Of a stretch of DNA of 64,000 nt, positions 54,777 through 64,000 are shown in pieces. Made by a program: the position numbers and the translations under genes. Each line of letters begins with the position of its first letter. Positions within the stretch are counted from its first letter, which is position 1. Source of the stretch: Blautia sp. Marseille-P3201T. GTDB lineage: Bacteria > Bacillota > Clostridia > Lachnospirales > Lachnospiraceae. Where the stretch lies: NCBI RefSeq assembly GCF_900120295.1, contig NZ_LT635470.1:930001-994000 (forward strand). The letters are read 5' to 3'. Below the pieces are notes generated by a model. That model was given only the letters and a program-made list of their open reading frames with translations, ran no database searches and was not told the origin of the DNA.

Positions 54777-56147
54777 TTAATTTTCTTGTTCTTCTGCCGC
54801 CTCTGCTGCCTTTAACATAATGGCACACTCCACACGCTTCCTCTGAAGCTCACATCCCAGTTCATAAACATCATTGATAGATCCATGAAAATTATAGGAA
54901 TTTGCCGCACAACCACCGCTGCAGTAAAATTTTGCAAAGCAGTTCTGACATTTTTCTTTTGCATATACGTTGCAATTTTTAAATTCTTCACATAAATCTG
55001 TACGTTTTACACCGTCCCATACATTTCCCATGAGGTACTTTTCTTCACCTACAAACTGATGACAAGGATATAAATCTCCCCATGGAGTTACTGCCAGATA
55101 CTCTGTACCTGAACCACAGCCGGACAAACGTTTATATACACAAGGACCGCCTGTTAAATCAATCATGAAATGGAAGAAATTAAATCCTCTTCCTTCTTTT
55201 TTACGCTTTATCATTTCCTTGGCAAGTTTGTCATATTCTTCGCAGATTTTCGGAACATCTTCCCATTTCAGTGCATATTCCTCTTTTTCATCAGCCACTA
55301 CAGGCTCTACAGAAATCTGATCAAAACCTAAATCAGCCAAATGCAGCACATCTTCGGAAAAATCTAAATTGTGACGTGTAAAAGTACCTCTTGCGTAGTA
55401 GCTCTTCTCTCCCCTGCTCTTTGCAAACTTCTGGAATTTAGGCACTACTAAATCATAACTTCCTGCTCCTTTTCTAAAAGGACGCATAAAATCATGTACT
55501 TCTTTTCTTCCGTCAATACTCAATACCACATTTGCCATTTCTTTATTGGCAAACTCCATGATTTCATCATCTAAAAGCACACCATTTGTAGTTAAAGTAA
55601 AACGGAAATTTTTATTATGAATTTTTTCCTGCTCTCTTCCGTAAGCAACTAAGTCTTTAATAACCTGCCAGTTCATCAAAGGCTCTCCGCCAAAGAAGTC
55701 TACCTCTAAATTTTTTCTATTGCCGGAATTTGCAATCAAAAAGTCTAAAGCCTGCTTTCCTACTTCATAAGTCATCAAAGCTCGTCTTCCGTGATATTCC
55801 CCTTCTTCAGCAAAACAATATCTACATGCTAAATTGCAATCATGGGCAATATGCAGACACAACGCTTTTACCACTGTTTCTCTTTCTTTAAAATGCTCAA
55901 TGGCATTTCTGTAAATATCTTCTGTAAACAGCATTTCAGCATCCTTTAACTCCTGAATTTCTTCCAATGCTGTTTGAATATCTTCTTTTTTATATGTATC
56001 TTTTAACTTCTCATAAACAACAGTTTCTTCCTGTCCTTCATCCAGAAGTCCGATTACATCATAAACCAGCTCATCTACTACATGTACAGAACCACTATTT
56101 ACATCCAGTACAATATTGTAGCCATTATTCTTATAACGATGTATCAC
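54777..56147 (-). CDS. scfB: SCIFF peptide maturase, radical SAM/SPASM enzyme
   Basis: This 456-aa enzyme forms Cys thioether crosslinks in the SCIFF peptide encoded just upstream. After a peptide-binding (RRE-like) N-terminal domain of about 90 residues comes HDCNLACRYCFAEEGEYHG with the CX3CX2C radical SAM cluster, then VDFFGGEPLMNW. The SPASM region contains GCGSGTEYLAVTPWGDLYPC, the Cys run CNVYAKEKCQNCFAKFYCSG and later Cys, ligating two auxiliary [4Fe-4S] clusters. Neighbours scfA, secDF and the TIGR04086 gene match the known SCIFF locus. Confidence 0.94.
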   Translation of the reverse strand: MIHRYKNNGYNIVLDVNSGSVHVVDELVYDVIGLLDEGQEETVVYEKLKDTYKKEDIQTALEEIQELKDAEMLFTEDIYRNAIEHFKERETVVKALCLHIAHDCNLACRYCFAEEGEYHGRRALMTYEVGKQALDFLIANSGNRKNLEVDFFGGEPLMNWQVIKDLVAYGREQEKIHNKNFRFTLTTNGVLLDDEIMEFANKEMANVVLSIDGRKEVHDFMRPFRKGAGSYDLVVPKFQKFAKSRGEKSYYARGTFTRHNLDFSEDVLHLADLGFDQISVEPVVADEKEEYALKWEDVPKICEEYDKLAKEMIKRKKEGRGFNFFHFMIDLTGGPCVYKRLSGCGSGTEYLAVTPWGDLYPCHQFVGEEKYLMGNVWDGVKRTDLCEEFKNCNVYAKEKCQNCFAKFYCSGGCAANSYNFHGSINDVYELGCELQRKRVECAIMLKAAEAAEEQEN

Positions 56148-56343: not shown

Positions 56344-56484
56344 TTATTTATGTTCGCAGCTCTGGTTTCCTACTGTGCAGGATGTTTTACATGCAGACTG
56401 ACAAGATGTCTGGCATTCACCGCATCCACCTTTTTTTACTGTATTCTGTAAGCTTTTTGTATTTAATGTTTTGATATGTTCCAT
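56344..56484 (-). CDS. scfA: SCIFF precursor peptide (46 aa)
   Basis: SCIFF means six cysteines in about forty-five residues. The 46-aa product MEHIKTLNTKSLQNTVKKGG, followed by a C-terminal half with six Cys (CGECQTSCQSACKTSC then TVGNQSC), matches the family exactly. The ATG at 56484 has GGGAGGA at 7 nt; an upstream ATG adding 14 residues is not needed. The peptide is the ribosomally made substrate of ScfB; its biological role is not established. Confidence 0.95.
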   Translation of the reverse strand: MEHIKTLNTKSLQNTVKKGGCGECQTSCQSACKTSCTVGNQSCEHK

Positions 56485-56534
56485 AACATAATCCTCCCAT
56501 GTATGATATAATTTAAGATATAGCATCTAGCGGT

Positions 56535-61339: not shown

Positions 61340-63415
61340 ATGAGAGAAGAATGGATTTCCTTTAACAAAGGAAATTGGACAAAAGAGATAGATGTAAGGG
61401 ACTTTATTCAGAAGAATTACACTCCTTACGACGGTGACGATGCCTTCCTTACAGGTCCTACAAAAGCTACACAGACACTTTGGGATCAGGTTATGGAACT
61501 TACAAAGCAGGAACAGGAAAAGGGCGGTGTACTGGATATGGACACAAAAATCATTTCCACCATCACTTCCCATGGACCGGGATATTTAGATAAAGATTTA
61601 GAAACAATCGTAGGTTTTCAGACAGACAAACCTTTCAAACGCTCCTTACAGCCTTACGGCGGTATCCGTATGGCAATGAAAGCCTGTGAGGACAACGGTT
61701 ATCACGTAGACCCTGAGGTTGTAGAATTTTTTACCAAGCATCGCAAAACACATAATGACGGTGTATTTGACGCTTACACACCGGAAATGCGTGCATGCCG
61801 CTCCAGCCATATTATTACAGGACTTCCGGATGCTTACGGCAGAGGACGTATTATCGGTGACTACCGCCGTGTGGCTCTTTACGGTGTAGACCGTCTGATT
61901 GAAGATAAAGAAAATGAAAAAAATACCACACGTACTACCATGTACTCTGATGTAACAAGAGAACGTGAAGAATTATCCGAGCAAATCCGTGCTTTAAAAG
62001 AATTAAAAGAGCTGGGTAAAATTTACGGATTTGATATTTCCCGCCCTGCTGCCAACGTCCAGGAAGCTATCCAGTGGTTATATCTGGGCTATCTTGCTGC
62101 TATTAAAGAGCAGAACGGTGCTGCTATGTCACTTGGACGTACTTCTACCTTCCTTGACATTTATGCAGAACGTGACTTAAAGAACAATACCTTCACAGAA
62201 GAACAAATTCAGGAATTTATCGACCATTTTATCATGAAGCTGCGTCTTGTGAAATTTGCAAGAACCCCTGAATACAATGCGCTGTTTTCCGGTGACCCTA
62301 CTTGGGTAACAGAGTCCATCGCCGGTATGGGAATTGACGGACGCCACCTTGTGACAAAGATGTCCTTCCGTTACCTTCATACACTGGAAAATCTGGGTAC
62401 TTCTCCGGAGCCAAACTTAACGGTTTTATGGTCTACAAAGCTGCCTGTAAACTTTAAGCGCTTCTGCGCCAAAACTTCTATCGCATCCTCTTCCATTCAG
62501 TACGAGAATGACGATTTAATGCGTGTAACTCACGGCGATGACTATGCCATTGCTTGCTGCGTATCTTCTATGCGCATCGGAAAAGAAATGCAGTTCTTCG
62601 GCGCTCGTGCAAACCTTGCAAAATGTTTGTTATACGCAATCAACGGCGGTGTTGACGAAGTATCCAAAAAACAGGTGGGTCCAAAATTCCGTCCTATTAC
62701 TTCCGAATATTTAGATTACGATGAGGTTATGGGCAGATTTCAGGATATGATGAAATGGCTTGCCGGTGTCTATGTAAATACTTTAAATGTCATTCACTAT
62801 ATGCACGACAAATATTCTTACGAAAGATTGCAGATGGCGCTTCATGATAAAAAAGTCACACGCTGGTTTGCAACAGGTATTGCAGGGCTTTCTGTTGTTG
62901 CCGACTCTCTGTCCGCAATTAAATATGCCAAAGTTAAAGCCATTCGTGATGAAAACGGCATTGCCGTAGATTATGAAATCGAAGGAGATTTTCCAAAATA
63001 CGGAAATGATGATGACCGAGTTGACGATATTGCTTATGATATTGTTCACACCTTTATGGAATATATTAAAGGAAATCATACCTACCGTGGAGGAATTCCT
63101 ACAACTTCTATCCTTACCATTACTTCTAACGTAGTGTATGGAAAAGCAACAGGTTCTACACCGGATGGAAGAAAAGCAGGACAGGCATTTGCTCCGGGCG
63201 CTAACCCAATGCACCACAGAGACAGCCACGGCGCTGTTGCATCCTTAAATTCTGTTTCCAAGCTTCCGTTTAAGGACGCACAGGACGGTATTTCCAATAC
63301 CTTTTCCATTATTCCGGGCGCTCTGGGAAAAGATGATGCAGTTTTCTTTAATGATATTGCTTTTGAATTAGAACCGGACTGCGCTTGCTGCGAACCAAAC
63401 ATTGACTTACAATAA
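61340..63415 (+). CDS. pflB: Pyruvate formate-lyase, catalytic subunit lacking the glycyl-radical loop
   Basis: The 691-aa protein converts pyruvate and CoA to acetyl-CoA and formate. The barrel is complete, from [20 protein letters not shown] through [20 protein letters not shown] to the catalytic [10 protein letters not shown] with Cys406-Cys407 and [14 protein letters not shown] near residue 665. Ordinary PFL is about 740-760 aa and ends with the glycyl-radical domain. Here the chain instead leaves after ALGKDD into 25 residues ([18 protein letters not shown] and EPNIDLQ) and stops. The missing part is encoded by the next gene in the same frame, 24 nt further, with its own ribosome binding site. 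The two proteins should act as one enzyme. Confidence 0.93.
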
Positions 63416-63439
63416 TACTTTTTACAGGAGGAATTTTCA

Positions 63440-63682
63440 ATGAATATCAGTAATGCTCAAATCGATAACTTAGTAAATTTATTAGACGGATATGCAGAAA
63501 AAGGCGGACATCACTTAAATGTCAACGTATTTACAAAGGAAACCCTTTTAGATGCACAGAAACATCCTGAAAAATATCCGCAGCTTACTGTTCGTGTGTC
63601 CGGATATGCAGTAAACTTCCACAAGCTGACAAAAGAACAGCAGGATGAGGTTATCTCAAGAACCTTCCATGACGGAATGTAA
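63440..63682 (+). CDS. grcA: Glycyl-radical domain of a split pyruvate formate-lyase (GrcA-like)
   Basis: The 80-aa protein is the C-terminal radical domain of PFL on its own: [37 protein letters not shown] with the radical Gly55 in RVSGYAV, and RTFHDGM at the end. It resembles the autonomous spare-part protein YfiD/GrcA, but here it follows a PFL that lacks this domain, so it is probably an obligate subunit rather than a repair part. CAGGAGGA lies 7-8 nt before its ATG. Its last 14 nt overlap pflA. The activase must make the radical on this separate chain. Confidence 0.92.
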
Positions 63683-64000
63683 AACAGGCTTTGTACACTC
63701 CATTGAAACCTTTGGCACAGTAGACGGCCCCGGCATCAGACTTGTAGTCTTTTTGCAGGGCTGTCCTATGCGCTGCCTGTACTGTCATAATCCGGACACT
63801 TGGGCTCCCAAAAAAGGACAATCTATGACCGTAGAGGAAATTCTGGAAATCTATGAAAAAAACAAAGGATTTTATCAGAATGGAGGAATTACCGTTACCG
63901 GAGGCGAGCCTTTGATGCAGTTGGAATTTGTCACAGACTTGTTTCAGGCTGCAAAGACAAAAAATATCCATACCTGCCTTGACACTTCCGGTATTCTTTA
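63669..64000 (+). CDS. pflA: Pyruvate formate-lyase activating enzyme (N-terminal part, cut by window edge)
   Basis: The frame starts [20 protein letters not shown], and contains [15 protein letters not shown] with the CX3CX2C radical SAM cluster, then [13 protein letters not shown], and runs off the right edge after about 110 codons. PflA abstracts a hydrogen from the PFL glycine to make the radical. It overlaps grcA by 14 bp in another frame, so the genes are translationally coupled. No strong ribosome binding site is seen. Confidence 0.93.

Follow-up and report, generated by a model that had tools for sequence, protein, structure and literature searches.

Can pyruvate formate-lyase (PFL) work permanently with its radical domain on a chain of its own? 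PFL, central to anaerobic metabolism, is one of the chief enzymes by which gut anaerobes convert pyruvate to acetyl-CoA, but it is vulnerable to oxygen, which cleaves it at the radical glycine. The question is raised by two adjacent genes in a 64,000-nucleotide (nt) stretch of the genome of Blautia sp. Marseille-P3201T (contig NZ_LT635470.1, positions 930,001 to 994,000; hereafter, the window), which encode a PFL catalytic subunit and a small protein carrying the glycyl radical loop. The first, pflB-like gene (61340..63415, on the + strand, as are all parts of this locus) is an open reading frame (ORF) for a PFL core of 691 amino acids (aa) without the radical loop, and ends with TAA (63413-63415). 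Its catalytic pair Cys406-Cys407, in the motif ACCVSS (62555..62560), is equivalent to C418/C419 of Escherichia coli PFL. After a 24-nt spacer with the Shine-Dalgarno (SD) sequence AGGAGG upstream of the second ATG (63416..63439), the ORF grcA3 (63440..63682) encodes an 80-aa radical subunit, in which Gly55 of RVSGYAV (codon 63602..63604) is the expected glycyl radical site, corresponding to E. coli Gly734. The end of grcA3 overlaps by 14 nt the start of pflA (63669..64000), which encodes a radical S-adenosylmethionine (SAM) activase of PFL, 249 aa in all, and extends past the end of the window. An earlier note on this DNA had placed the cysteine pair on the 691-aa protein and the radical loop on the 80-aa one, and had described both genes as intact, with a strong ribosome binding site on the second. 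The sequence agrees: both frames are open and AGGAGG precedes the second ATG.

The 691-aa protein scored above the cut-off of the PFL model TIGR01255 (1114 against 994.2 bits), covering profile positions 2-670 of 744, and was 59% identical to E. coli PFL (2pfl) over 657 aligned residues. The radical loop of TIGR01255 has no place on this chain and is encoded by the next gene; in Pfam, the chain matched PF02901 and, of PF01228, the first half alone. The 80-aa protein aligned to residues 683-758 of E. coli PFL, that is, to the remaining part of PFL, and is a member of NF038360 (GrcA3; 171.6 bits, cut-off 158). With the GrcA model TIGR04365 it stayed below the cut-off (94 against 170 bits) and matched profile positions 66-125 of 126 only. 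The complete pflA product was recognized by the NCBIfam activase model TIGR02493 (287.2 bits, cut-off 231.75). The earlier proposal that the split falls exactly at the hinge ALGKDD held in part: PFL homology of the large protein does stop there (residues 661-666), but the protein runs on for 25 residues (667-691), a C-terminal tail encoded at 63338..63412 that contains the cysteine (Cys) module DCACCEPN (63377-63400).

The host assembly (2.94 Mb, 99.7% complete; closest named relatives, Blautia) contains a single match to PF02901, the catalytic subunit of the window, and TIGR01255 matched only the two parts of the window pair. A full-length PFL elsewhere in the genome, for which the earlier note had proposed to look, was not found with these two profiles, which leaves the split enzyme as the sole PFL known from the host assembly. 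A weak Gly_radical match on contig 5 was considered as a hidden PFL and rejected, being NrdD (575 bits, cut-off 326.35).

The arrangement recurs among relatives. A search for a PFL-like large gene with a small radical-domain gene, also suggested earlier, gave 172 split loci that collapsed to 161 non-identical pairs; L150, ambiguous by its script label, was counted as split, and L001-L005, which cover stretches of the window itself and nrdD, were excluded. Pair and locus counts rest on a phmmer pass, regex passes having missed some loci (five full-length ones called none, and L088 and L089 called small only). In a sample of 299 genomes of the same family, from 298 genera, GrcA3 was over the cut-off in 101 and PFL in 212, and a standalone radical gene was matched in 114, among the matches listed; many genomes of the family thus appear to have made the weak spot of PFL a separate part. 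All 50 of the GrcA3 genomes that we examined directly, a subset of the 114, carry the split form, and 5 of them have a full-length PFL as well. In a sample of the phylum, PFL was over the cut-off in 104 of 348 genomes, and two were split among the matches listed, both in the same family. When 84,980 named species were scanned with the small protein, 557 relatives were confirmed; the best 80 of these comprised, on a first pass, 78 split and 2 small-only loci, from 74 Bacillota, 3 Spirochaetota, 2 Actinomycetota and 1 unplaced organism.

These distributions bear on the possibility that GrcA3 is a spare part only, which repairs oxygen-cleaved full-length PFL, the short PflB being damaged or auxiliary. 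The name of NF038360 is autonomous glycyl radical cofactor, GrcA3 is related to E. coli GrcA/YfiD, and 19 relatives possess an additional free-standing copy, a potential spare. However, in the host genome we found no full-length PFL to repair, none was over the cut-off in 45 of the 50 GrcA3 genomes examined directly, and grcA3 lies directly between pflB and pflA. We regard this explanation as very improbable. The name describes a spare cofactor, whereas the genomic evidence here is that of an obligate subunit of a split PFL, and, with those 45 genomes, the annotation may well be misleading.

Both parts of the enzyme are kept. RVSGYAV or RISGYAV is present in all 161 pairs and the Cys pair in 160, the exception being L205, where the large frame is broken in two; Cys406-Cys407 was invariant across 56 aligned catalytic subunits. 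Where the flank is long enough to tell (155 pairs), 133 have a pflA motif no more than 1.5 kb downstream. Every pair has an SD-like motif of four bases or more, a count biased upward since the script picked start codons of the small genes with a preference for such a motif. In a comparison with seven relatives, synonymous differences were near saturation and non-synonymous ones few in both genes, and both parts are under purifying selection. With the motifs kept in 161 pairs and no other PFL found in the host, the earlier claim that the locus is not decaying stands.

The same pairs decide whether the split is only apparent, with the TAA read through or recoded to give one 780-aa PFL. The two ORFs of the window share one frame, and the joined chain is predicted to fold like PFL; against this, the spacing between the genes ranges from 0 to 1286 nt (the largest values, in L205 and L190, stem from broken large frames), the spacing modulo 3 is 0, 1 and 2 in 51, 56 and 54 of the 161 pairs, and in 73 of them another small gene intervenes. 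Given this variation in frame and spacing, read-through was rejected as having a negligible chance of being true. The earlier suggestion that the one-frame layout came from a stop in an ancestral gene stood as to the shared frame here and a single splitting event; the in-frame TAA itself is not supported as a trace of it, given the additional tail of the large subunit and the differing frames and spacings among the pairs, by which the shared frame of the window is uninformative. Sequencing error or recent pseudogenization of a full-length pflB, suggested by the one stop that alone parts the two frames in the window, can be dismissed, since the break and the conserved motifs recur in 161 non-identical pairs, cultured strains such as Blautia sp. 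An81 (L137) and Lacrimispora xylanisolvens DSM 3808 (L178) included, and in single-contig genomes (for example, G265 and G296), both parts are under purifying selection and the 52-row starred clade around the window is entirely split.

The locus, then, very probably encodes an obligate two-polypeptide PFL, in which a PflB core is completed by a docking GrcA3 radical domain that PflA activates. PflB would supply the barrel, the substrate site and Cys406-Cys407, and the 80-aa GrcA3 would form a complex with it as the missing radical domain. PflA would put the radical onto Gly55 of GrcA3, from where it would cross the protein-protein interface to the cysteine pair of PflB, and this pair would cleave pyruvate, yielding formate and, with CoA, acetyl-CoA. 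With the oxygen-sensitive glycine confined to a short chain of its own, cleavage by oxygen should sacrifice only the 80-aa part, which would be cheap to replace, and spare the rest of the enzyme. In E. coli, truncated PFL (tPFL) is active once YfiD bears the radical, according to the excerpted text of PMC8683613, and a PflB G734A strain makes intermediate amounts of formate when GrcA is present, according to that of PMC12338860; a radical on a separate chain can therefore drive PFL. By analogy, the split enzyme most likely works with such a radical permanently. Exchange of an oxygen-damaged radical subunit for a new one is plausible on the same analogy, and fits both E. coli GrcA/YfiD and the second radical genes of 19 relatives. 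The split PFL would be a natural counterpart to the repair complex of E. coli PFL with YfiD, and it makes a swap of the radical subunit after oxygen exposure directly testable.

The joined chains have a predicted fold that matches E. coli PFL. AlphaFold modelled both chains as one with a mean predicted local distance difference test (pLDDT) score of 86 and an ordered Cys stretch, and 731 residues of this joined model could be superposed at 1.5 Å on the E. coli enzyme. In the model of the catalytic subunit alone, the Cys-pair stretch, the neighbouring loops and the tail were at low confidence. The tail block is predicted to be disordered in both (pLDDT 26-30 in the subunit alone and 33-38 in the joined model), and residues 666-700 of the joined model, tail plus linker, remain disordered; the break falls in a stretch that is predicted flexible. 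We also considered the tail as a plug in the empty barrel, which is unsupported given the pLDDT of 26-30 for the tail block in the subunit-alone model, and a pairing of model residues near 670 with the E. coli radical strand, which lies in a low-confidence stretch and was not used.

Several observations weigh against an obligate two-chain enzyme. The contrast between the subunit alone and the joined chain is suggestive only of ordering on joining, as the two AlphaFold runs used different alignments and the gain in confidence is partly an input effect. No pflA motif was found within 1.5 kb in 22 of the 155 pairs with enough flank, and in L190 and L205 the large-subunit frame is itself interrupted, by error or decay. 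A full-length PFL occurs beside the standalone radical gene in at least 6 of the 114 genomes, among the matches listed, and in lineages that keep it the split enzyme could have another role. Finally, the excerpted text of PMC8683613 describes the binding of E. coli tPFL to YfiD as too weak to measure and activation as poor, so that no advantage is evident from splitting as such.

We next consider the origin of the split. In a larger tree (FastTree), 200 of 234 catalytic parts were kept, 125 split and 75 full-length; a more careful tree of 84 rows was built under LG+G4 without a mixture, leaving out L261 for its long branch. Three changes separate the split and full-length states on the 200-row tree, as they do on the 84-row tree across the 5-95% range of bootstrap trees. 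Every split row of the 200-row tree falls inside one clade of 132 rows (support 99), together with 7 full-length rows. The approximately unbiased (AU) test rejected trees in which the split rows were held together without these 7 (p 0.015), as well as trees in which L070 alone was kept outside the split rows (p 0.007). To our knowledge, full length is the state of all other glycyl radical enzyme (GRE) families. With full length taken as ancestral, the three changes on the trees are one split, followed by two re-fusions, and the earlier claim that a single ancestral gene was split agrees with the one clade of split rows and with both trees. In one re-fused PFL, L070 (934-3231), the hinge retains a Cys tail, VTCGCEEVTCAVDAN. 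The second re-fusion is a six-genome clade of full-length PFLs within the split clade (L065, L080 and L122-L125), with no Cys module.

The new part of these findings is the Cys module, which is present in 157 of the 161 split pairs and lacking in 74 of the 75 full-length PFLs. Past the hinge, two Cys or more occur in only one full-length PFL, L070; the 45 scored residues contain two Cys in a further five, in which inspection by eye puts one at most beyond the hinge. In 84 pairs, including that of the window (class A), the module is formed by at least two Cys in the tail of the large subunit; the paired Cys was constant in 15 chosen tails, and 15 of the 84 tails fall outside the C..C..P pattern, some finishing in CCEGT, CAEC or CADC. 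L205 is counted among the Cys tails, its broken large frame mimicking a third ORF. In 73 pairs (class B), the tail has no such Cys, and a third protein is encoded between the two genes, where the gap is usually 200-450 nt. This protein (54-97 aa, from 72 examples) begins like GrcA3, with IDDIVAMLD-FM--GGGHMNV, followed by C-x(4-8)-C-x-[VI]P[NT], and 24 rows show no variation at H24, C48, A54, C55 or P58. Examples are those in the gap of L022 (offset 82) and in L044, L078 and L162. The long gaps had also been considered as regulatory RNA; folds of 24 of them were uninformative, and translation revealed the third ORF.

Tail and third protein did not occur together in any pair, and 4 of the 161 have neither nearby. 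For two of these, L042 (genome G130) and L062 (genome G282), the third ORF is elsewhere in the genome (G130:C51:24253-24474 and G282:C1:1298915-1299094, respectively); in both loci the large gene is separated from the small one by pflA. The other two, L034 and L161, lack the Cys tail and have no third ORF in their vicinity, and are exceptions to the rule. Throughout the genomes of the family set, the third protein is present in none of 34 with the tail type and in all 58 with the third-ORF type. Among the matches listed, it occurs in 77 of the 299 family genomes, 76 of which have GrcA3 (the assembly of the remaining one is 67% complete); in the same terms, it is found in 76 of 114 GrcA3 genomes versus 0 of 101 genomes with only a full-length PFL. 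The state of the module changed 7-9 times in bootstrap trees, at least three times on starred branches. On the FastTree tree, with 8 starred pairs (6-7 opposite and 0 same), a sign test for mutual exclusion gave p 0.016-0.031; the careful tree had 2 starred pairs only. Judged by this distribution, the module seems to belong to the split-PFL set.

What the third protein resembles suggests how the module might act. Its first ~31 residues matched the first part of GrcA3 with an hhalign probability of 96.7% (E 3.5e-10), and the glycine loop (SGYA) was found in none of the 73 listed ORFs; judging from these sequences, it apparently arose from a duplicated radical domain that lost the loop. Searched with four of the third proteins, Pfam gave nothing over the cut-off and one weak Gly_radical match (E 0.033), and NCBIfam gave only weak GrcA3 matches (E 4e-5 to 0.036); a search of the Protein Data Bank (PDB) with one of them found no sequence match. 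One possible function is that of a radical-less placeholder: the module would imitate the helix-strand part of the radical domain and, in the absence of GrcA3, fill or mark the site of that domain on PflB. The GrcA3-like start and loop-less end of the third protein fit such a role, as do its occurrence in GrcA3 genomes and absence from the full-length-only ones, and its never being found with a Cys tail. The role has a precedent, too, in residues 696-733 of cleaved E. coli PFL, which the excerpted text of PMC8683613 proposes as a recognition element for YfiD. On the other hand, tails of the window type have no helix-strand part, and AlphaFold places the tail without confidence; we hold the placeholder only tentatively. 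With the same caution, it could help to recruit GrcA3 or shield the active-site cysteines.

In the two-polypeptide PFL proposed above, our best guess is that the Cys module of the PflB tail stands in for the E. coli stub thought to recruit a spare radical domain. The third protein would be this stub supplied in trans, and the tail of the window may serve alike with the Cys part alone. Split PFL may perhaps be a three-function system, with the Cys module as a dummy radical domain that would hold the dock, or mark it, and so enable exchange of the radical subunit; that each split PFL needs the module, fused or separate, is a similarly provisional part of this proposal. The Cys-bearing third component is, in any case, a concrete new protein family.

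Somewhat less probable is the idea that the Cys module binds a metal or an Fe-S cluster and regulates the radical domain, in the way of the [4Fe-4S] subunits of benzylsuccinate synthase. That enzyme is, by the excerpted text of PMC12590467, likewise a GRE with a small Fe-S subunit governing radical chemistry, and its accessory subunit promotes the thiyl radical; the invariant C48 and C55 of the third protein and the paired Cys of the 15 chosen tails could suit such a site. Yet two constant Cys are few for a [4Fe-4S] site, the four third proteins searched have no family match of the Fe-S subunit kind, and the C..C..P pattern fails in 15 of the 84 class A tails. The same excerpts describe the benzylsuccinate synthase accessory subunits as similar to high-potential iron-sulfur proteins (HiPIP-like), and no such match was found here: a fold comparison of the catalytic and joined models, which did not include the third protein, listed no HiPIP-like protein, which is not evidence of absence. 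We consider metal binding unlikely.

At 19 loci of the family set, a radical-domain gene stands without a large subunit, each in a genome that has a split pair too. The motif that reads NVFTK in the window reads NVLNR in 16 of them. Neighbours were inspected for 10 of the 19, and most of these genes lie beside unrelated ones; L046 and L098 follow, by eye from the sequence, a Crp/Fnr-like regulator, and L066 and L099 are other examples. These second genes could be true spares.

How does the split enzyme relate to known systems? With E. coli PflB (2pfl/1mzo/1h16) it shares the fold, the Cys-Cys pair, the radical glycine loop and activation by PflA; E. coli PflB, however, is a single polypeptide without a Cys module, whereas in the window a gene of its own encodes the radical domain. 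E. coli GrcA/YfiD (TIGR04365; 6owr) is, like GrcA3, a small free-standing radical domain serving a PFL without its own. GrcA differs in being longer by ~60 residues at the N-terminus and in serving as a backup to a full-length PFL, whereas GrcA3 is the only PFL radical domain found in the host genome. No PDB chain was found to be closer to GrcA3 than E. coli PFL. The best PDB sequence matches to the catalytic subunit are the formate acetyltransferases 38la and 38lb (1155 and 1163 bits), of which 38la stops at the hinge of the window subunit and 38lb continues past it. The 12 nearest rows to each among the fetched loci were all split PFLs (L150 included), so that 38la and 38lb appear, from their sequences, to be split catalytic subunits, although 38la could be an engineered truncation. 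Neither was among the matches of the fold search (library to 2026-04-08), and they are probably later entries.

The earlier note had left open whether the arrangement had been described. It has in part, in that the NCBI model NF038360 exists and 38la/38lb look split; we found no paper. In the open-access literature, a search that leaves most subscription journals outside, no description of split PFL, GrcA3 or PDB 38la/38lb was found, nor was one of the Cys module or the third protein, at which no search was aimed by name. Split PFL is thus best seen as a variant form of an established enzyme, of which database curators and structural biologists have some knowledge already.

Elsewhere in the window, two genes on the - strand (56344-56526 and 54777-56147) encode a SCIFF ranthipeptide precursor and its radical SAM maturase, a known pair; they scored 85.5 bits with TIGR03973 (cut-off 50) and 818.8 bits with TIGR03974 (cut-off 425), respectively.
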